This document shows, piece after piece, positions 8,783-25,729 of a stretch of 45,629 nucleotides of DNA. The position numbers and the translations under genes were made by a program. Within the stretch, counting starts at the first letter, position 1, and each line of letters opens with the position of its first letter. Source of the DNA: a virus; the IMG/VR virus record IMGVR_UViG_3300042914_003558, positions 1 to 45,629 of that record; one strand, 5' to 3'. The notes below the pieces were generated by a model. The model was not told the DNA's origin. It saw only the letters and a program-made list of their open reading frames with translations, and did not search any database.

Positions 8783-8971
8783 ATGGTCCATATGGACCTT
8801 GAAAATTATTTTCGTTTGAACTTTTCCCTGATGCAGTACCATAAATATTCTTTATGGGAGATTGAAAACTTGATACCGTGGGAAAGAGATATCTATGTTG
8901 CATTATTACAACAGCATCTTGAGGAAGAGCAATTAAAACAACAGCAGCAGATGAGCAATGCCCACTTCTAA
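8783..8971 (+). CDS. 51: gp51-like baseplate hub assembly protein
   Basis: A 62-residue protein whose core, YHKYSLWEIENLIPWERDIYV, fits the small gp51 family that follows gp26 in cyanophages. T4 gp51 is needed catalytically for hub assembly and is not in the virion. The C-terminus is Gln/Glu rich. The start could be 8783 or the internal ATG at 8792. It overlaps the next gene by 14 bases. A gp26-gp51 pair reading into a tape measure recalls the assembly-chaperone pair of other tailed phages. Confidence 0.7.
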   Translation: MVHMDLENYFRLNFSLMQYHKYSLWEIENLIPWERDIYVALLQQHLEEEQLKQQQQMSNAHF

Positions 8972-11246
8972 GGACTTAAAAGACCTAGATTCACAACTTA
9001 AAAAAACAGTTATCTCTGCCGAAAGTTTTAAGAGAGGGAGTTCTCTTGATTCCTCAAGAAGCATTGCAAATATACATAAGACACTATCAAATCTTGCGGA
9101 ACATACAAGGAAACTTGCTGTTCGTTTTATTAACTTAGAAAAAGTTGTTGATAATAATTCTAGAAAGATTACGATTCTCAAAAATCTTTCACAGTCTCAA
9201 AGTAAAAGAATAAGTGGCGATAATATTGGCGCAAAATTACCTGGCAGTTCTACATCAAATGTAGAAGATAGTATCTCTGCGATTGCAAAATCGGTAAGTT
9301 CAATTGCAGAGATAATGGCAAGTAGAAAAAAACTTGCCGATAATACCGCTGCTTATGAAAAAAGAAAAGCAGAACAGGAAAAAAGAGGACTTGCTGAAAG
9401 TAAGTTAGAAAATGTATTTACTGGAATTGCACGAACTGCAGAAAAAATTATAACGCCCGTAAAAAGTCTTCTTGATAGGATACTAGAATTTATTGGAACT
9501 GTCATTCTTGGAAGGATAATTTTTAAAATTATTGAGTGGTTTGGAAAAAAAGATAATCAAGAAAAAGTACAATCACTCATTCGTTTTTTTAAAGATCATT
9601 GGCCTAAGCTTCTTGCATTATATTTGGTATTTGGTAATTCTTTTGGAAGATTTGTTTTTAGTTTAACCAAGACTTTAATTGGTGGTGCAATTAAACTTGG
9701 TATTGCAATTGCTAAATTGTTAGCAGCAAAAAAAGTAGCAGGTGCTGGAAGTGTAGCAAAATTTCTTGGTAAACGTGGGGGTCTCATTGGTGCTGGATTA
9801 GCAACAGCTGTTACTGTCGGGGGAGCATTAGCAGTAACTAATACTCTTAAGGGTGAAGAAAAACCAAACACACAAAAGTTTTCTGGTGGTGGATTAGCAA
9901 TTCCAAGATTTGCTGGGGGTGGATTTAATTTTAAAGGTATGTTAGATCCATTAGGAATGCTTTTTGGTGGTGCATTTGGATCTGGAAAACCACAAGAAAT
10001 GATGAGTGGTTTTGTAAGTGGAGAGAAGGGTATTGATAAAGTCCCTGCGATGCTTAGTGATGGTGAATTTGTTATGTCTCGTGGTGCCGTTGCGAAGTAT
10101 GGTGTAGATACTTTGGAAGCAATGAATGCTGCTGGAGGTGGGACAAATAAACCAAAAATTATGAGTGGAACTACTTATGCTCAAGGTGGTGGGTTGGTTG
10201 GAAATAAACCCAAGCAAGATGAAATTAAAAATCAACAGAAAGATGCTGCTAAAACTCCTAACGCAGCAAGAGCAGCACAACAACTTCAAATAAAAAAAGC
10301 ACTCACATCAGGAAAGGGAATTTCTACAGGTACGTCTGAATCTGATGTAAGAAAAGAGTGGAATAATGTTTTTAATAATATAGACCATCCTTTATTTTAT
10401 AAAGTAGTATCTGATCCATCGTACAATTATACACAGTTTAAAAAAGATTATCTATCAAAACAATCAGAAAAACCAAAGTCAACATATAAACCTTATGTTT
10501 CTAGATTTGCAGGTGCTAGAGATGCTGCACACGAGAGAGCAAAAAGAATTCAACCATCAAGACCATATGTAAATCCATTCTCACCGGGAGGAATGTTTGG
10601 CGGTCCAAGAATGCAAGCAAGATTAGATTATGCTGCAGGAAAGGGTAAATATTATTCTTCTTCAGACCAAAAAACCTATGGAAATTATAATGATGCAGTA
10701 TCTGCTAAAAAGTCCAGGTTAACTTCATTGGCATCACAGCAAAGACTTAACAAATTGAGTTTTGCTGGTGCGAGTAGAAATAAATCAAGAGGTGTTAGAA
10801 TTGATGCTGAGGACAAAGCAAGATCGCAAGAAGTTAGGAGTAGGGGAGGTGCCTTTGGTCAAATGATGAGATTGAGCACTAGAATATTTGGTGGAGAAAA
10901 AGGTAGAAGCAGAGTTGAAGCGTCTGATAAAGCATCACAATCAAGAGTAAAACAAGCAGGTGCTGCTTCTATTGGTAGATATTATTCTTCTTCAGATGGT
11001 AAGTATTATAAAGATTATAATGCTGCAGTTAAAGCTAAAAAATTAAGACTTGCCGAACAGCAAAAGAAATCTAGTGGAGTTAAACCACCAGTAAAACCAA
11101 GTCCTAAACCATATGTTGCCTCTGGTGGAGGAATGGGCGGTAAGAGAGGGAGTGGTGCGAATCCAAGTGGCACAAAACCACCAAAATTTGGTGCAACTTG
11201 TCCTAAGAATGGTAATCAGAAGAAAAAAATTCTTGGTATATTCTAG
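8958..11246 (+). CDS. Tape-measure-like tail protein
   Basis: A 762-residue protein. Residues 1-160 are coiled-coil-like (Lys/Ser/Leu). Residues about 165-190 (FIGTVILGRIIFKIIEWF) and 205-245 are hydrophobic helices, followed by a Gly-rich stretch. Residues about 350-385 carry KVPAMLSDGEFVMSRGAV, a motif typical of phage tape measures. The C-terminal part is basic and Gly/Ser/Pro rich and holds two copies of a KYYSSSD...YNxAVxAKKxRL unit (about 562-588 and 672-698). It probably sets tail length or lines the tube, as gp29 does in T4, though it is not an obvious gp29 homologue. The hydrophobic block is shared with the next gene, so the two are probably paralogues. Confidence 0.7.
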   Translation: MPTSKDLKDLDSQLKKTVISAESFKRGSSLDSSRSIANIHKTLSNLAEHTRKLAVRFINLEKVVDNNSRKITILKNLSQSQSKRISGDNIGAKLPGSSTSNVEDSISAIAKSVSSIAEIMASRKKLADNTAAYEKRKAEQEKRGLAESKLENVFTGIARTAEKIITPVKSLLDRILEFIGTVILGRIIFKIIEWFGKKDNQEKVQSLIRFFKDHWPKLLALYLVFGNSFGRFVFSLTKTLIGGAIKLGIAIAKLLAAKKVAGAGSVAKFLGKRGGLIGAGLATAVTVGGALAVTNTLKGEEKPNTQKFSGGGLAIPRFAGGGFNFKGMLDPLGMLFGGAFGSGKPQEMMSGFVSGEKGIDKVPAMLSDGEFVMSRGAVAKYGVDTLEAMNAAGGGTNKPKIMSGTTYAQGGGLVGNKPKQDEIKNQQKDAAKTPNAARAAQQLQIKKALTSGKGISTGTSESDVRKEWNNVFNNIDHPLFYKVVSDPSYNYTQFKKDYLSKQSEKPKSTYKPYVSRFAGARDAAHERAKRIQPSRPYVNPFSPGGMFGGPRMQARLDYAAGKGKYYSSSDQKTYGNYNDAVSAKKSRLTSLASQQRLNKLSFAGASRNKSRGVRIDAEDKARSQEVRSRGGAFGQMMRLSTRIFGGEKGRSRVEASDKASQSRVKQAGAASIGRYYSSSDGKYYKDYNAAVKAKKLRLAEQQKKSSGVKPPVKPSPKPYVASGGGMGGKRGSGANPSGTKPPKFGATCPKNGNQKKKILGIF

Positions 11247-11258
11247 GAGATAGAGTAA

Positions 11259-14051
11259 ATGGCAATCACCTCAGACAAACTCCTAAACAGAACAACAAAA
11301 AATATTGATAGGAATATAATATTTTCTGGTGGTCCTTCTAATGTTGTTCTAACAAAAAAATCAGTAAAAGATATTGGTGAAATTAAAGTTAATGTAATTA
11401 AGATTGAAAGTATCTTGAAAGGAACTCTTGCATCTGAAAAGAAATCTCTTGATGAAAAGAAGAGGCAAGAGAGTGGTAAAAGAAGAGAGAAGCAAGAGGA
11501 AAAGCTAGAAACAAAACCTCAGGCAGAGAAAGGACCAATCAAGATGCCAAAGGTTCCCAGAACAGGATTTCTTGATTGGATAAAGAATTTTATTGGTAAT
11601 GTAATTCTTGGATATTTTGCTATAAGAATGTTGAAGTATTTGCCTAAGATAGTACCAATTTTAAAGTTTCTTGGATCTGCTACTGATTTTGTAATTAACA
11701 CTGGGGGAAAACTTTTAGATGGTCTGATTACTTTTGTTGACTGGGGTTACAAAGCAATTGATGCAACCACGGGATTCATTAAGAAGATTGGTGGATCTGG
11801 TGCCGCAGAAAATTTTGGAAAGTTTCTTGGTCTGATTGACAATGCGTTATTCCTGACAACTACGATTGCAACTGCTATGGCAGTTGAAGCTTTAACTTCA
11901 ACTAGTGGTAAAGATATTGATATAAACGGACAATCTAAACCTAAAGGAAAACCCACAGTAACGCAAGGAAGAGGAGGACAAAAATTAGGACCTAGATTAC
12001 CAGGAACTGGACCCAAAATTACTGGTGCTGGTGGCATTGGTAGACGTGGAACAAAAGCAATTCTTGGAACTGTAAGACCTTTACTTAAAAGACTTCCAAT
12101 TATTGGTGCTTTGATTGATTTTGGTTTGTCTGTGGCACTTGGAGAAGATCCTGGTAGGGCAGCATTTAAAGCAATAGGTGCGGCTCTTCTTGGTTCTGTT
12201 GGTGCTGCTGTTGGTTCTCTTGCTTTTGGTTTTGGTGGAATTATTGGTGGTATTCTGGGAAGTATAGGTGGTGATGCACTTGGTGGGGCATTATATGATT
12301 TATTTTTTGGTGGAAAGAAACCAAAACCTAAAGGCAAAGTTCAAGGAAAGGCAGGTGGTGGAATTACAAGAGGTGGTAAAGCACAAACAGGAGCAAGAAG
12401 AACTATAGGTGGAGACAAAAAGAAAGGAAAGTACAAAAGAACTTTAGCGAGGAAACCATCCAAAACTCAGTTCAAAGCAGATCCTAAAGATCCTTTAGTG
12501 AAGAGTGCTGAAGAACTTGATAAAACAAAATATTTTGGACCAGTTCTTTCGATCACAAATAAACTTGATATGAAAGAAGAACCAACCCAAAAAGATTATG
12601 AAAACGTTGGATTGGGTCTTAACTTATTAATTGCAAAAGGTCTTGAAGAAGGACAATTAAAGGGTGGATTGGTTGCTGCATTTGCTGAAGGTGGAATGGT
12701 AGATGGTGAGTTCTTGTCAGCAGCAGAAAAGGGAGTTGATATTAGTAGTTGGATTAGTAAAACTTTTAGAGATGAGTTTGAAACTAATGCTCAAAGAACT
12801 TTGAGATTGATAAGAGAAAGAAAAGAAAAGAAAGAACCTGATAAAAGTGATCCTACATTAACTGGACCTGATGAAGAATTGCCAAGTGGAACATTAACAG
12901 AGGGACAGTGGGGTCCCCTATTGGATTTAATTTCTGGCAAAGAATCTGGTGGAAATTATGAGGCAATGTATCCAAGTACAACACTAAAGGGTGCAACCAA
13001 GATGACCATCGCTGAAGTTGCTAGGAGAGCAACTGGTGCTGTCGGCAAATATCAACAACTCCCACAATATCTTGTAGGAAGGGCAAGAGCGGCAGGTCTT
13101 AATCCAGATAAAGATCTTTATAGTCCAGAGAATCAGGAAAAGATTATTATTAATGTCAATATTAAAGGAAGAGGTGGTGAAAGGTGGTTGAAAGGTGAGA
13201 TAAGTGATGAACAGTTTATGCAAGGATTGTCACAAGAATTTGCATCTTTACCCAATGCTCAGGGTAAGTTTTATTATCCTGGACAAAGAAGTTCAATGAC
13301 TGCAGAAAAAGTTAAAGCAGCTCTTTCTAAAGTTAAGAAAGGTGGATATAGTCAACAAGAAATAGCATCGTCAAAAACTGGAATGACCGGTCCTTTGGGA
13401 ACAGGAAAAGCATCTAGTGTTGATCAATTCAATGCGATTGCTAAAAAATATGGATTAACTTTAACAAGTGATTACCGACCTGGTGATTCTGGATATCATG
13501 GAAAGAATAGAGCGAGAGATTATTCAAATGATTCTGTGGGAAGAGGAACACCTGAACAGTTAGCATTTGCAAAATATTTGGTCCAAAATTATGGTTCATC
13601 ACTTACTCAACTAATCTATACTCCACTTGGATTTGGAATTGCTAATGGTAAAAAAGTCGGATTAGATTATTGGGGAGCATCAACAAATGCAATTCATTAT
13701 CACCATGTTCACGTTGCTCTTGCTAAGGGTGGACGGGTTCTTATACCAACATTTGCGATGTTGGCTGAAGAGGGTCCAGAGTTTGTTTTTGATGCAAACA
13801 CCACTGCTGGACTAGATAGAATTGCTCCTGGTATTTTAGAAAAATTAAATGTTGCAAAAACAAAACCACAACTTGCAAGTATTCTTCAATCTTATACGGG
13901 ATATGAACAACCATATGGAGAGACGCAGATTGTTGAGGTTCCTGTAGAAGTCCCCGTTGTTATGGGCAGAAATTCTTATGGATCTTCGTCAACAATAATT
14001 GCTCCTTCTGGTGTAGAGGATCCATATGAAGCACTTTATGTTGGTGGGTAA
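11259..14051 (+). CDS. Tape-measure-like tail protein with muramidase-like and M15-peptidase-like domains
   Basis: A 930-residue protein after AGGAGAT. Residues 1-95 are charged and helical. Residues about 100-135 (FLDWIKNFIGNVILGYFAIRM) match the hydrophobic block of the preceding protein. Gly-rich and hydrophobic stretches follow (about 240-350). Residues about 550-660 look like a transglycosylase or muramidase fold: GKESGG with candidate catalytic Glu562, then GAVGKYQ around Tyr598. Residues about 725-820 carry SDYRPGDSGYHG, with His747-x6-Asp754 and a later HVH (His816, His818), the zinc-ligand pattern of M15/LAS D,D-peptidases. The end has EEGPEFVFD, another tape-measure motif. It is probably injected or hub-attached and cuts both glycan and peptide bonds during entry. 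Confidence 0.75.
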   Translation: MAITSDKLLNRTTKNIDRNIIFSGGPSNVVLTKKSVKDIGEIKVNVIKIESILKGTLASEKKSLDEKKRQESGKRREKQEEKLETKPQAEKGPIKMPKVPRTGFLDWIKNFIGNVILGYFAIRMLKYLPKIVPILKFLGSATDFVINTGGKLLDGLITFVDWGYKAIDATTGFIKKIGGSGAAENFGKFLGLIDNALFLTTTIATAMAVEALTSTSGKDIDINGQSKPKGKPTVTQGRGGQKLGPRLPGTGPKITGAGGIGRRGTKAILGTVRPLLKRLPIIGALIDFGLSVALGEDPGRAAFKAIGAALLGSVGAAVGSLAFGFGGIIGGILGSIGGDALGGALYDLFFGGKKPKPKGKVQGKAGGGITRGGKAQTGARRTIGGDKKKGKYKRTLARKPSKTQFKADPKDPLVKSAEELDKTKYFGPVLSITNKLDMKEEPTQKDYENVGLGLNLLIAKGLEEGQLKGGLVAAFAEGGMVDGEFLSAAEKGVDISSWISKTFRDEFETNAQRTLRLIRERKEKKEPDKSDPTLTGPDEELPSGTLTEGQWGPLLDLISGKESGGNYEAMYPSTTLKGATKMTIAEVARRATGAVGKYQQLPQYLVGRARAAGLNPDKDLYSPENQEKIIINVNIKGRGGERWLKGEISDEQFMQGLSQEFASLPNAQGKFYYPGQRSSMTAEKVKAALSKVKKGGYSQQEIASSKTGMTGPLGTGKASSVDQFNAIAKKYGLTLTSDYRPGDSGYHGKNRARDYSNDSVGRGTPEQLAFAKYLVQNYGSSLTQLIYTPLGFGIANGKKVGLDYWGASTNAIHYHHVHVALAKGGRVLIPTFAMLAEEGPEFVFDANTTAGLDRIAPGILEKLNVAKTKPQLASILQSYTGYEQPYGETQIVEVPVEVPVVMGRNSYGSSSTIIAPSGVEDPYEALYVGG

Positions 14052-14074: not shown

Positions 14075-15430
14075 ATGGCAAATCAGGTAGTAACAAAGTC
14101 AGCAGAAGCTTCTAATATTACGCAACTTGATATCGTTTCAAACAAGACGGGGAAAACCGTAAGTGTTACTGGCGGAACCGTTGGGTTACTTTATTATGAA
14201 AGTATCCTACAAGATTCTATAAGAGCAACAGTAACTTTTGCTGACGTAGGAAATACGATCAATAATAAAACTGCCCTTGATGGGTTACCAATTGTTGGTC
14301 AAGAGCAAGTAAAGGTAAAGTTTTCTGATAATAATGAGAATGAATTGGACTTAACTTTGTATGTAAATAAAGTTACTCCTTTAAGTGATGATACTACAAA
14401 GTCTTTGGTTCAACTTGACTTGACATCTAAAGAGTTTATTTTGAATGAGAAAGTAAGATTGAATGAAAGGTTTGATGGTAAAATCTCAGAGCACATTAGA
14501 AAAATACTAACAGATAAAAACTACCTTGCAACAGAAAAAGAAGTTGATATTGAAGAGACTTCAAATAATTATAATTTTGTTGGCAATAATCGCAAACCTT
14601 ACTATGCTATGAATTGGTTGTCAAAAAAATCAATATCAGCAGAAGCACAAAAGAAAGGTGAAAGTGCAGGATACTTTTTCTTTGAAACTTATGATGGGTT
14701 TAAATTTAAATCAATAGATGGTCTTTTATCTCAAGAAAAGAAAAAGTCTATCCTGTATAACCAATCTCCAGATTCCAGAGGAGAAAATTTACCCGCTGGA
14801 TATGATGTAAAAGCACTTGACTATAACAAAGATAACAGTGTTGATGTTCAAGAAAAGTTGCAGATGGGTGCTTTTTCCACTAGAACAATTCTTTTTGACC
14901 CATTCAGTTGCTACTATGAAGTTGTGACCCAAAATGCTAAAGATAAAGAAGACTCTTTAAAACTAGCTGGTAAAGAACTTCCTGTTCTCAATTCGGAATT
15001 TAATCGTGGAGGAAAAAATAAAGAATTCTCTAGAACACAATATATGCTCCTTGATAGGGGAACCTTGCCTTCTGGTAGTGGTACTGGTAAAAATCAACAA
15101 CAACTACAGAAATCCAAAGAACTTAATTTTGAAGCAAAGGATATTCTAAATCAATCCATTAGAAGATATGGTCAGTTGTTTTCACAAAAATCAACCATCA
15201 CAATAGCAGGTGATTTTTCACTACACGCAGGTGATGTCATATTCCTAGATGCTCCAGAACTGCAAACTGATACAAAAAATGATGACATCAATAAGGAAAG
15301 TGGGGGTCTATATATTATAGCGGATTTATGCCACTATATTTCTCCAAAAGAAACATATACAAAATTAAATCTAGTAAGGGATTCTTTTGGAAGAAAGGGA
15401 AATCACACTTCAAATTATAATCCATTATGA
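14075..15430 (+). CDS. 27: gp27-like baseplate central hub protein
   Basis: A 451-residue protein (T4 gp27 has 391). The N-terminal domain has LLYYESILQDSIRATVTFAD, typical of gp27 and other hub proteins with a tube-like beta-barrel. KVTPLSDDTTKSLVQLDLTS follows, and a C-terminal strand pair carries GDFSLHAGDVIFLDAPE. gp27 forms the trimeric ring to which the gp5 spike and the tail tube attach. It follows AAGAGG and overlaps the CP12-like gene by 4 bases, with the gp5-like hub gene just beyond. Gene order agrees with hub function. Confidence 0.82.
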   Translation: MANQVVTKSAEASNITQLDIVSNKTGKTVSVTGGTVGLLYYESILQDSIRATVTFADVGNTINNKTALDGLPIVGQEQVKVKFSDNNENELDLTLYVNKVTPLSDDTTKSLVQLDLTSKEFILNEKVRLNERFDGKISEHIRKILTDKNYLATEKEVDIEETSNNYNFVGNNRKPYYAMNWLSKKSISAEAQKKGESAGYFFFETYDGFKFKSIDGLLSQEKKKSILYNQSPDSRGENLPAGYDVKALDYNKDNSVDVQEKLQMGAFSTRTILFDPFSCYYEVVTQNAKDKEDSLKLAGKELPVLNSEFNRGGKNKEFSRTQYMLLDRGTLPSGSGTGKNQQQLQKSKELNFEAKDILNQSIRRYGQLFSQKSTITIAGDFSLHAGDVIFLDAPELQTDTKNDDINKESGGLYIIADLCHYISPKETYTKLNLVRDSFGRKGNHTSNYNPL

Positions 15431-15651: not shown

Positions 15652-17433
15652 ATGGAAGGAGGAGCTTTATTCAATCCAGGATTTTTAGGTGGTAACTTTC
15701 TTTGGTGGGTAGGTCAGATTGCTGACGATTCTACCTGGAGAGATAATATCCTGCCTGGAAAATTTGAAAATAAAGATTCTATTCCTGGGTGGGGAAGAAG
15801 ATATAAAGTAAGAATTATTGGACTTCACGATAAGGAAGAAGAAACAATCCCATCAGATCAACTTCCTTGGGCACAAATAATGTATCCTGTGACTGCCGGT
15901 GGTGGGCAGACAAACGCAGGAGCAACAGCAAACTTAAGGCAGGGTAATTTTGTTTTTGGTTTCTTCCTTGATGGGCAGGATATGCAGGTTCCTGTCATTA
16001 TGGGAGTGCTTGGAAACAATGCACAGACTTCACTTCAAACAACAGTAGGAAACAGTGAATCTAACTTCTCTGGAACCAGTGGATATGCTAGAGGTTCTGA
16101 ATCTAAAGGTGCGGCAAAGGAGAAGGTGCCCAAAGAGGGTCTGGTCATTGTCAAACCCAAATCACCAGAACAGGCAAAGGAGTGTGCATCACCTCCTCCC
16201 GGAGTTAAACTTGATAAATTTGGATTAAGACCCGACCTAGCACTAACCAAATCTCAACTAGCAGACTCTCAAAGTGCAAGAGCAGAAGCAGATGCTCAAG
16301 GACTAACTGGTGCTGCAAAAGATGAATTTGTTAGACAAAGAGTTGCTCAAGGAATCAAGAATCGTTGTCAACAATCAAGTTCTCCAACATCACCTTCTCA
16401 ACCAGGTGCAACAAAAGAGAATGTAGATGCTGTCCACGAACTGAGTGCAGCCGATATCCAGAGGCAGGATAAGTATGTAGAAAAGATTGCATTGATGAAT
16501 CCTCACGGAAAGATTCAATCCGCAATGCGAGCAATACAGACTACCATTGATAATCTGATTCAAAAGATAAGCAAATATTTTAATGCAATTACAAGTTATG
16601 TTGATGCGGTATCGAATAAAATTTCCGACTTAAAAAAATTAGTTAGGGAAGCTTCGTGTCAAATTGCAAAGTATATGAAAATGCTTTTTGATAAGATAAT
16701 GGAATATGTGCTTAAACTTCTTAACAAAGCATTGGTAAAAGTCGTTTCTGCACTTCCATCTTCAATGAGATTTATGTTTGCAGACATCAAAGAAATTATT
16801 ACTGAGTTGATTTTGTGTTTGTATAATAAAATCACTCAAGGTCTCTGTGATTTAATTGAAAAACTATTAGAGAGTGCATTGAATCTTGATGAGACTGAAA
16901 AGAAAATAAGAAATAATTTGAACAATCCATCTCAAAAAGATACTACTGCTAAAGTTCCAGTTTGTTATGCCGAAACTCTAGTTGGACAAGTTATGGCAAT
17001 TAATCGTCCAGAAATTGATAAGGCAAATAATGCTCTACTTGATAACGTAAATGGTTTCTTGGATAATATCCAAACAGAAGTCGCTGGCGTAAGTAATTCA
17101 TTCTCTGATGTTCTTTCTAAGGTCGATTCAATCAATGGAAGTCTAACTTCTGCATTAAGTTTTGAAAATATTAAACTTAATGTATTTGGATGCGAATTAA
17201 AACCATTGGTTGCAGTTTCAGATTTCTATACTTTTGGTAAAGGTAGTGCTGCTCAACCTGATGGACAACTTCCAAGTGAAAAGTCTATTGAAAATGCAAC
17301 AGAAACTGCAACAAAGGCAGTAAATACTCCAGGAACTGTTGAAAACCAGGCTGCAAATTCGACAGCAACACAAACTCCATTTGCAGAACCGACTAGAGCG
17401 ACTCCAGACTTAGAACTTACTGAGTCACCATAA
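15652..17433 (+). CDS. 5: gp5-like baseplate hub protein lacking the lysozyme domain
   Basis: A 593-residue protein. Residues 1-130 (GNFLWWVGQIADD, WGRRYKVRIIGLHD, LPWAQIMYPVTAGGG, LRQGNFVFGFFLDGQDMQVPV) form the OB-fold of gp5/VgrG-type hub proteins. A linker rich in Ala, Gln and Pro follows. Residues about 270-410 are amphipathic helices (IQSAMRAIQTTIDNLIQKIS and onward). The C-terminal part is Thr/Ala rich. No T4-type lysozyme motif and no beta-prism repeat is seen. Those functions seem to be split between the enzyme-bearing protein at 11259-14051 and the spike-like protein at 21110-21787. It should sit on the gp27 trimer. Confidence 0.8.
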   Translation: MEGGALFNPGFLGGNFLWWVGQIADDSTWRDNILPGKFENKDSIPGWGRRYKVRIIGLHDKEEETIPSDQLPWAQIMYPVTAGGGQTNAGATANLRQGNFVFGFFLDGQDMQVPVIMGVLGNNAQTSLQTTVGNSESNFSGTSGYARGSESKGAAKEKVPKEGLVIVKPKSPEQAKECASPPPGVKLDKFGLRPDLALTKSQLADSQSARAEADAQGLTGAAKDEFVRQRVAQGIKNRCQQSSSPTSPSQPGATKENVDAVHELSAADIQRQDKYVEKIALMNPHGKIQSAMRAIQTTIDNLIQKISKYFNAITSYVDAVSNKISDLKKLVREASCQIAKYMKMLFDKIMEYVLKLLNKALVKVVSALPSSMRFMFADIKEIITELILCLYNKITQGLCDLIEKLLESALNLDETEKKIRNNLNNPSQKDTTAKVPVCYAETLVGQVMAINRPEIDKANNALLDNVNGFLDNIQTEVAGVSNSFSDVLSKVDSINGSLTSALSFENIKLNVFGCELKPLVAVSDFYTFGKGSAAQPDGQLPSEKSIENATETATKAVNTPGTVENQAANSTATQTPFAEPTRATPDLELTESP

Positions 17434-21800: not shown

Positions 21801-22586
21801 ATGTCATTTTGTCAAGACGATGTAACAGTTGGAGGTCAACTTAAAGTTGGATTTGGTGTTGCTCCTGCTATTAAGGAAGGAGACCAAAAGATTAATGGAT
21901 CTGCTTTTATTGAAGGTCCTATGGTTGTTGGAAGTCCCTTTACATTTCCAACTTGCCAGGCTGCCTTGATGGTGGGCACTTTGGTAAATCCTGATGCAGA
22001 TGCAGAGAATCCTTTTATTCCTGGTTCTCTATGTACTGGAATCAATAATCCATATGCACTTTGTGTTCGTGGAGATGCTGCAATCTTTGATAACCTAGAT
22101 GTTAATAGAACAATCGCAGCAGGTAGAGATATTATTGCTCAAGGAGAAATTAAGTCTCGTTGTGGTGGGCATATTCTTTCTGCTAAAAAGAATTTTGACA
22201 TCCCACACCCGACAAAAGAGGGATGGAGACTTCGCCATACTTGTCCAGAAGGACCATCTAATGATGTATATTTCCGTGGAAGAGTTACCAATAAGGATGA
22301 AATTTTGCTTCCAGCATACTGGAAAAAATTAGTTGATTGGACTACAATTACAGTCAATCTTACACCAATTGGTTCACACCAGAATGTGATTATAAAAAGA
22401 ATGGATGAAGAAAAAATCTATCTTCAGTCCTATGGTGGTATGCCAATTGACTGCTTCTATCACATCTATGCGACTCGCGCTGATGGTGAGAGACTTATTC
22501 CTGAATATGAGGGAGAGTCTCCAGCAGACTACCCAGGAGATAATAACCAGTATTCAATTTCTGGTTACCATTATGATGTTAAATGA
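21801..22586 (+). CDS. Fibre-like structural protein A, with conserved C-terminal DIPHP domain
   Basis: A 261-residue protein after a strong AAGGAGG. The N-terminal half looks like fibre shaft (GGQLKVGFGV, NLDVNRTIAAGRDIIAQGEI). The C-terminal half from about residue 130 is a compact domain: NFDIPHPTKEGWRLRHTCPE, YFRGRV, LPAYWKKLVDWTTITVNLTP and YEGESPADYPGDNNQYSI. The domain is repeated in the next gene and is common at the ends of cyanophage fibre proteins, where an assembly or tip role is likely. Cysteines are frequent for a phage fibre. Receptor unknown. Confidence 0.75.
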   Translation: MSFCQDDVTVGGQLKVGFGVAPAIKEGDQKINGSAFIEGPMVVGSPFTFPTCQAALMVGTLVNPDADAENPFIPGSLCTGINNPYALCVRGDAAIFDNLDVNRTIAAGRDIIAQGEIKSRCGGHILSAKKNFDIPHPTKEGWRLRHTCPEGPSNDVYFRGRVTNKDEILLPAYWKKLVDWTTITVNLTPIGSHQNVIIKRMDEEKIYLQSYGGMPIDCFYHIYATRADGERLIPEYEGESPADYPGDNNQYSISGYHYDVK

Positions 22587-22597
22587 GGAGATGAAAA

Positions 22598-23359
22598 ATG
22601 CCAGCTGCATCTGATAAAAGAGTTGATGATGAATTTGTCCCTAGAAATACGAAGGACAACAACTGTAATGATAAGTTTATGGGTGGTACAAAATCCATAA
22701 GATATGATTATATTGCAAAGGCAACAACTGGTGATGATAATTACCCAGAAGATGCTTGTGACTTGTTGTATCATGGAAATGCCCAGATCGATAATCTCCA
22801 AGTAAACATGGAGATTAATGGAACTGGTGGTATTGATCTGATTGGAACTATAGATTCTGCTACTTCAATGACAGCTCCAACTTTTTTTGGAAATTTTGTC
22901 GGAAACTTAACAGGAACTGCAAGCGGAAACAAAAGTTCGGGTGCTTTTGATATTTCCCACCCCAAAAATGAGAACTTGAGGGTTCGTCATATTTGTGCAG
23001 AGGGTCCAGAGCCTGGAATTTATATTCGTGGTAGACTAAAAGGTGGTAATGTAATTAATCTGCCCGATTATTGGGATGGTCTCGTTGATCCAGATACTAT
23101 TACTGTTACACTAACTCAAATTGGTTATTCTCAGGATTTAATTGTTGATTCAATTGATGGTCTCAAGTCTGTAAAAATCAAATCTGGTGGCGCTGTTGCC
23201 ATTGATTGTTTTTATGAGATTTGGGTAGCAAGATGGTTGGATCCTAAAGATACATCTAAGAAATTGTTTGTCACTTATGAAGGAAAAACACCACACGATT
23301 ATCCTGGTGATAACTCTGACTTCATTGTGGGTGGAACCTCTGCTATTGACTGGCGGTGA
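22598..23359 (+). CDS. Fibre-like structural protein B, paralogue of the preceding gene
   Basis: A 253-residue protein after GAGGAG. The N-terminal part is different, with shaft-like FFGNFVGNLTGTASGNKSSG. The C-terminal domain repeats that of the preceding protein: AFDISHPKNENLRVRHICAE, YIRGRLKGGNVINLPDYWDG, TITVTLTQIGYSQD and YEGKTPHDYPGDNSDFIVGG. The pair probably arose by duplication, with the shaft diverging faster than the tip. It is the last gene of this structural run. A sigma70 promoter starts 5 bases after its stop, with no terminator between. Confidence 0.75.
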   Translation: MPAASDKRVDDEFVPRNTKDNNCNDKFMGGTKSIRYDYIAKATTGDDNYPEDACDLLYHGNAQIDNLQVNMEINGTGGIDLIGTIDSATSMTAPTFFGNFVGNLTGTASGNKSSGAFDISHPKNENLRVRHICAEGPEPGIYIRGRLKGGNVINLPDYWDGLVDPDTITVTLTQIGYSQDLIVDSIDGLKSVKIKSGGAVAIDCFYEIWVARWLDPKDTSKKLFVTYEGKTPHDYPGDNSDFIVGGTSAIDWR

Positions 23360-25087: not shown

Positions 25088-25729
25088 ATGAAATCAGATT
25101 TTTACATAGATAGGGTAGGAAAAGAAGAAATCAAAGAACTTCTTTATACCTATCATTATCTAAAAGACGAATCTAAAGATTTTAAATCTGGTTTCAACTA
25201 TGGATTATACCGCAACACATTCACAGATGTCCTTAATATTGGCGGGTGTCTTGGTGCTTGCATTTTTACTGGTCTCCCAGTTCCAGAAATCGCAGTAGGT
25301 GCTTTTGGATTGAAAAGAGATGAGCAAGAAGGTTTATTTGAACTTTCCCGTCTCTGTATTCATCCAGAAGTACAGAAAGAAGAGTATAATATCACATCTT
25401 GGTTCGTCAGTCGTTGTATAAGGAGGTTTAGGAAAGATGCCTGCGTTCGTGCTATTCTTAGTTACGCTGACTCTGATCACCACTCTGGAACTATATACAG
25501 AGCTTGCAATTTTCAGTACTACGGTTTAACAGATTCCAAAAAAGATTTTTATTATGCTGACGGAACCAAACATTCACGAGGTAGTATCAAGGGTGCTGAT
25601 GGTGAGTGGCGTAATAGGAGTCGTAAACATCGCTATCTTATGGTTTTTGACAAGGAACTAAAGAAAAGGTTGACTTGGGAAGAGAAATCGTGGTATAATA
25701 ATCAAGACGATACTGAATCGTTACAGTGA
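25088..25729 (+). CDS. Mom-like GNAT-family protein (possible DNA modification)
   Basis: A 213-residue protein with the landmarks of phage Mom-like proteins. ELSRLCIHP (Glu85 onward) is followed by a helix, then SYADSDHHSGTIYRACNF (residues 125-142). This matches the Mom-type pattern in which an Asp/His-rich strand is followed by G-T-I-Y-x-A-x-N. Mu Mom is a GNAT-fold enzyme that turns adenine into a bulky modified base, protecting phage DNA from restriction. A related unknown acyltransferase role is also possible. It ends the accessory island before the terminator at 25750. Confidence 0.78.
   Translation: MKSDFYIDRVGKEEIKELLYTYHYLKDESKDFKSGFNYGLYRNTFTDVLNIGGCLGACIFTGLPVPEIAVGAFGLKRDEQEGLFELSRLCIHPEVQKEEYNITSWFVSRCIRRFRKDACVRAILSYADSDHHSGTIYRACNFQYYGLTDSKKDFYYADGTKHSRGSIKGADGEWRNRSRKHRYLMVFDKELKKRLTWEEKSWYNNQDDTESLQ
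25670..25699 (+). promoter_or_regulatory. Sigma70-like promoter within the Mom-like gene end
   Basis: TTGACT (25670-25675), an 18-base spacer and TATAAT (25694-25699) with a TGG just before it (extended -10). It lies in the last codons of the Mom-like gene and only about 50 bases before a strong terminator, so any transcript from it would be very short unless there is read-through. Confidence 0.5.

Follow-up and report, generated by a model that had tools for sequence, protein, structure and literature searches.

Two predicted wall-cutting domains in an exchange-prone cassette of a tape-measure-like tail protein from a T4-like cyanomyovirus

The window analysed here is the whole of a virus record from IMG/VR (IMGVR_UViG_3300042914_003558), 45,629 bases in length. 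Its hub, PhoH, ssDNA-binding and CP12 genes resemble those of T4-like Synechococcus phages, and the DNA identity to the nearest isolates is 77-79%, over only part of the stretch. A cyanobacterial host is likely for the source phage because of the CP12 gene and of these T4-like Synechococcus phage relatives. A protein of 930 aa is encoded within the hub/tape-measure gene block of this cyanomyovirus fragment, and its homologues in isolated cyanophages keep the same gene order. The genes of the block considered here are the following:

8958..11246, + strand: upstream chassis gene, a paralogue, 762 aa (shared N domain, E=4e-50; weak PHROG tape-measure matches)
11259..14051, + strand: dual-lysin, tape-measure-like tail protein, 930 aa (open reading frame and translation, ATG start)
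14075..15430, + strand: tail/hub protein directly downstream, gp27-like by position (phrog_350 tail protein, E=8.4e-100)
15652..17433, + strand: gp5-like baseplate hub (Gp5_OB, E=1.1e-5; phrog_33098)

In T4, the hub protein gp5 carries a lysozyme domain, whereas the gp5-like hub of the source phage has the OB domain but no glycosidase or lysozyme domain in Pfam, as the first-pass annotation had proposed. The contrast with T4 drawn there is a fair one, although the arrangement is less unusual than was implied, dual tail lysins having been documented already. An enzyme domain was also looked for in the upstream chassis gene of the source phage, and none was found. Farther along the same strand, a Mom-like DNA modification protein (25088-25729; Pfam Mom, E=1.1e-21; phrog_1384, E=1.4e-30) is an unusual cargo among tail genes, and two tandem paralogous genes of unknown function (21801-22586 and 22598-23359, also + strand) cross-hit phrog_17490 and phrog_28536.

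A scan of IMG/VR gave 72 loci, and profile searches over loci were used to define three conserved chassis parts (N, MID, and CT), the last two of which enclose a pair of domain slots (A and B). In the 930-aa protein these parts are arranged as follows, all on the + strand:

11367..11843, +: N chassis domain, conserved, aa 37-195 (profile search; tblastn to S-SM2, Bellamy, and S-SCSM1)
11949..12851, +: MID chassis region, conserved, aa 231-531 (profile search over loci; glycine-rich hydrophobic stretches at 275-294 and 301-338)
12891..13358, +: slot A, lambda-R/GH104-like glycan-cutting domain, aa 545-700 (alignment, PDB profile, hhalign, Foldseek)
13380..13733, +: slot B, MT3/VldE-like LAS zinc peptidase domain, aa 708-825 (alignment, PDB profile, Foldseek)
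13746..14045, +: CT chassis region, conserved, aa 830-929, with a tape-measure-like PTFAMLAEEGPE motif (profile search over loci)

The N chassis domain is common to the 930-aa protein and to the product of the upstream gene, which is therefore regarded as a paralogue of the dual-lysin gene. The hydrophobic blocks that had been described as tape-measure-like are indeed present, at residues 189-207, 275-294, and 301-338. The canonical form of the PTFAMLAEEGPE motif occurs in S-CREM1 homologues, and a search of phage records with the CT region alone matched S-SM2 and no other tape measures.

The domain in slot A has been related to lambda endolysin R (1am7, GH104-type) by several means. Its profile matched lambda lysozyme among solved structures (1am7, E=0.0011) together with the hub of the cyanophage A-1(L) (8kea, E 0.0081), and local hhalign against lambda R gave E=4.6e-7. 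In the global hhalign, E562 falls on E19 of lambda and the GKYQ motif on lambda GRYQ, so that slot A holds both features of a lambda-R-type enzyme, with a catalytic Glu where the first helix ends, and a GxYQ motif. The putative catalytic acid is encoded at:

12942..12944, +: E562 codon, equivalent to lambda R E19 (family alignment; global hhalign)

This residue is invariant in 20/20 related sequences and holds in a wider set too. The glycosidase region is 67% identical to its match in Synechococcus phage S-CREM1 (E 2e-58) and also matches a PHROG endolysin family (E ~1e-14). No Pfam or NCBIfam family model matched slot A above its cut-off, and for this reason the domain is filed as GH104-like and not as a member of GH104. 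The muramidase/transglycosylase-like domain suggested by the first-pass annotation is thus retained as a lysozyme-like fold, but of the lambda-R/GH104-like type instead of GH23. Slot A is probably a lytic transglycosylase that acts through E562. Whereas lambda R works as a free enzyme at lysis, the slot A domain is embedded in a tail protein.

The domain in slot B shows the zinc motifs of the LAS/clan MD peptidases, HxxxxxxD and then HxH, in the right order. The residues concerned are encoded at:

13476..13478, +: R740 codon, equivalent to the VldE transition-state arginine R294 (alignment; role from PMC11667670)
13497..13499, +: H747 codon, putative zinc ligand, equivalent to VldE H301 (alignment)
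13518..13520, +: D754 codon, putative zinc ligand, equivalent to VldE D308 (alignment)
13704..13712, +: H816-V-H818 codons, HxH motif, equivalent to VldE H373-x-H375 (alignment)

H747, D754, H816, and H818 are invariant in 7/7 family sequences, with a wider set in agreement, and R740 is conserved in every alignment row that covers its position. Together with E562 in GKESGG and Y598 in GKYQ, the H747-x6-D754 and H816-V-H818 motifs lie exactly where they had first been read. As with slot A, searches of Pfam and NCBIfam returned no family model above its cut-off. Among solved structures, on the other hand, the slot B profile matched the crystallised MT3 domain of VldE (9flh, E=1.7e-7), and the earlier M15/LAS-like assignment, correct as to fold and motifs, can be refined to the MT3/VldE type. 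VldE (Spr1875; 9flh-9fln) is a pneumococcal L,D-endopeptidase in which the catalytic zinc is bound by H301, D308, and H375, R294 and H373 are also used, and the L-Ala-D-Glu bond is cleaved (PMC11667670). It is the nearest solved relative of slot B, with which it shares fold, zinc ligands, HxH motif, and arginine at 26-29% identity in Foldseek alignments; however, it is a bacterial LysM protein and not a virion protein, and the substrate of slot B is here a prediction. By analogy, L-Ala-D-Glu endopeptidase is the best guess for the activity of this domain. Mycobacteriophage tape measure proteins also match the peptidase region, with E ~1e-15. The MT3 motif of the TM4 tape measure is muralytic and aids infection of stationary-phase cells (PMC1796659). 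TM4 is comparable in that its tape measure contains a wall hydrolase, but a paired glycosidase slot is not described in the accessible part of that paper. Slot B itself aligned with TM4 gp17 by hhalign only weakly (E 0.069), in the HxH region only.

Both folds have been supported by structure prediction, as the first-pass annotation had advised. An AlphaFold2 model of residues 537-837, built with 35 sequences, had a mean pLDDT of 85.8 and a pTM of 0.57, values that read as two confidently modelled domains whose mutual arrangement is uncertain. In Foldseek, this model matched the VldE entries (best 9flk, E=1.4e-4, prob 1.00; TMt 0.57-0.67), with hedgehog and MepA matches ranking below them, the A-1(L) hub (E 1.5e-4, prob 1.00), and lambda lysozyme 1am7 (E=0.055, prob 0.99, TMt 0.57), the last indicating a lysozyme-like fold. 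The A-1(L) hub and the tandem do not superpose as a whole, because the rmsd is 23 A over the 333-column Foldseek alignment. S-H9-2, at the top of the viral Foldseek list, was rejected as a dual-domain match because no peptidase motif follows its glycosidase. Alignments, PDB profiles, and the model show that a single tail protein holds two wall-hydrolase domains of different kinds, for which cleavage itself is predicted.

The same two positions are occupied by other domains across the family. Each of the 56 distinct proteins that have MID as well as CT holds 289-590 aa between these two parts, a two-domain cassette, and clustering of the cassettes sorted slot A and slot B into 9 families each, which occur in 20 combinations. 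The Pfam names found in slot A are Phage_lysozyme2, Hydrolase_2 (SleB-type), Phage_lysozyme (GH24), Glucosaminidase, and Amidase_2, several of them below the gathering cut-off, and families A2 (that of the source protein) and A9 had no Pfam match. In slot B, M23 and CHAP were recognised by Pfam and the other families were unmatched; by eye, B1-B4 and B7 have LAS-like histidine/aspartate motifs, and B5 resembles a cysteine peptidase domain. In B1 (L019:10248-10628) and B3 (L039:7935-8369), the LAS-like zinc motifs are reversed, with HxH before HxxxxxxD or H...D, an order suggesting circular permutation. For B3 as a circularly permuted M23 domain the motifs are suggestive, but no PDB entry matched its AlphaFold2 model (pLDDT 90.6) and permuted versions of the sequences had no match in Pfam; the reading of B1 as a permuted M15/hedgehog-like domain found only weak matches to hedgehog.

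Wall-cutting domains appear to be exchanged often in this virus family, because unrelated cutters fill these two positions in relatives that are otherwise almost identical. For example, the chassis of loci L046, L075, and L071 are 97-99% identical, and their cassettes are A5-B4, A5-B2, and A1-B2, respectively. The DNA alignment of L046 with L075 runs through aa 778 and resumes at 871, a swap of slot B only with sharp boundaries, and that of L046 with L071 runs to aa 607 and resumes at 876. In eight pairs with a chassis identity of at least 0.92, which are not independent of each other, the median identity was 0.20 for slot A, 0.26 for slot B, 0.83 for CT, and 0.96 for the next gene. The C-terminal half of the upstream paralogue also breaks the alignment in some near-identical pairs. 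Such contrasts could come from chimeric metagenomic contigs, but several independent pairs give the same picture, and domain content varies among isolates as well. A programmed switch that draws on silent copies was considered and rejected, as no second copy of two tested domain families was found in the contigs of seven long relatives (which may be incomplete), the weak A7 matches there being located within the tail gene itself. Preference is given to recombination between phages as the source of the exchange. Searches of open-access papers found none that describes such slot exchange.

The position of these proteins in the tail has been approached through isolates. In S-SM2, S-SCSM1, and S-CREM2, as in the source phage, the gene pair lies between gp26/gp51-like and gp27-like genes. 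RefSeq gives the S-SCSM1 homologue the name tail length tape measure protein, and ORF213 and ORF214 (the homologues) were detected in the virion proteome of that phage, where, according to its authors, they might also be carry-over after CsCl purification. The counterparts in S-CREM2, gp208 and gp209 (1565 and 1456 aa), were assigned by synteny and bear cassette-type domains; they had no chassis match above threshold, and both were found in the S-CREM2 virion proteome. In S-CREM2, which has the longest reported myovirus tail (418 nm), gp209 (L232:9185-13555) contains two glycan-cutter-type domains, A9/A2-like at 333-500 and GH24-like at 542-662. A glycosidase-like domain is found in the upstream paralogue of some relatives (L015:2362-4506, L227:2919-4898), lysozyme-like by eye in L015 and SleB-like in SynMITS9220M01 (E 0.01), and therefore the two activities can be divided between two genes. 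For five isolates, the combined length of the pair and the tail length are as follows:

S-CREM2: summed pair 3021 aa, tail 418 nm
S-N03: summed pair 1655 aa, tail 138 nm
S-H34: summed pair 1671 aa, tail 129 nm
S-CREM1: summed pair 2007 aa, tail 165 nm
S-SCSM1: summed pair 2081 aa, tail 173 nm

S-CRM01, which has a single gene at this place (864 aa) and a tail of 140-170 nm, was omitted. The Pearson coefficient is 0.98, from five isolates only and driven by S-CREM2, and this tracking is only suggestive of a tape-measure role for the pair.

The explanation proposed here, which we hold with high confidence as a whole, is that of a paired tape-measure-like tail protein with two wall cutters for DNA entry in recombining slots. 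The protein would be one of two tape-measure-like tail proteins made from the hub gene block for a contractile cyanophage tail, and tail contraction would release it at the host envelope. There, slot A would cut glycan strands in the manner of lambda R, probably as a lytic transglycosylase through E562, and slot B would cut the stem peptide, probably at L-Ala-D-Glu, with Zn2+ on H747, D754, and H818 and the assistance of R740 and H816; both cuts together would open the peptidoglycan for DNA entry. Both slots would be exchanged by recombination across the phage family while the chassis stays, and therefore the enzyme pair could change quickly.

The nearest competitor keeps the same dual-lysin entry function and differs in the structural role: the protein would be a hub accessory on the baseplate, and the upstream paralogue alone, or neither protein, would measure the tail. 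Paired hydrolases are carried in the hub protein by A-1(L) and diffocin, and the tape-measure PHROG matches outside the peptidase are weak; the paralogy with the upstream gene, the tape-measure-like C-terminal motif, and the length tracking in five isolates, however, argue for a tape measure, so that we consider this placement the less probable one but a serious contender, a split role of the two paralogues being possible. Far less credit is given to the slot domains as folded but catalytically dead relics that act as wall-binding modules only. Although no Pfam model recognises the domains of the 930-aa protein, diverse relatives retain every catalytic and zinc residue, and where the slots of relatives are refilled, other hydrolase families take the place, which suggests selection for hydrolysis. 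Slightly less probable still is a lysis-time endolysin working from inside the cell instead of an entry enzyme: the S-CREM2 gp208/gp209, S-N03, and S-H34 homologues are annotated as endolysin and PHROG endolysin matches exist, but the gene is in the hub/tape-measure block, the chassis is long and hydrophobic, homologues or syntenic counterparts occur in virion proteomes, and the RefSeq name of the S-SCSM1 homologue is that of a tape measure.

The dual-lysin idea is not new, because dual tail lysins are known, including one that has been assayed: the baseplate hub gp15 of A-1(L), whose endoglucanase and peptidase domains are active on Anabaena (PMC10966104). Like the protein described here, gp15 (8kea) belongs to a cyanophage tail and combines several domains that hydrolyse the wall, but it is a hub, built of a barrel domain plus three additional domains, and not a tape-measure-like chassis with two slots. 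Other examples that unite a glycan cutter and a peptidase in one tail protein are the diffocin hub-hydrolase CD1368 (PMC11329794) and CwlP of SP-beta (reviewed in PMC5380687); they involve other domain families and Gram-positive targets, and slot exchange is not described in the accessible text of these sources. Among cyanophages, tail genes of S-SM2, S-CREM1, S-SCSM1, and ACG-2014e have homologous chassis and/or cassette domains. S-SM2 and Bellamy have one LAS domain, in contrast to the two cutters here; S-CREM1 has the same glycosidase but a different M15-type peptidase, located in the upstream gene; and in ACG-2014e a related glycosidase is accompanied by a CHAP-like domain. What appears to be new is the exchange-prone two-slot cassette. 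We give about an even chance to a broader proposal, in which tape-measure-like proteins of cyanomyoviruses would form a two-slot blade holder, with glycan cutters mostly in one slot and peptide cutters mostly in the other, the slots being exchanged independently and often as a hypervariable host-adaptation locus like tail-fibre tips, and some slot-B families (B1, B3) being circularly permuted LAS peptidases.

Which hosts a tailed phage can infect is usually attributed to its receptor-binding fibres. The turnover of both cutters in a tail gene that is otherwise nearly identical would make peptidoglycan a second barrier, one that changes fast and with which cyanophages must keep pace. The cassette also accounts for the adjacent cyanophage tail genes that are variously annotated as endolysin, chitinase, lysozyme, carboxypeptidase, or tape measure. 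Finally, these cassettes are natural, ready-made pairs of muralytic domains, of predicted activity, for laboratory testing.
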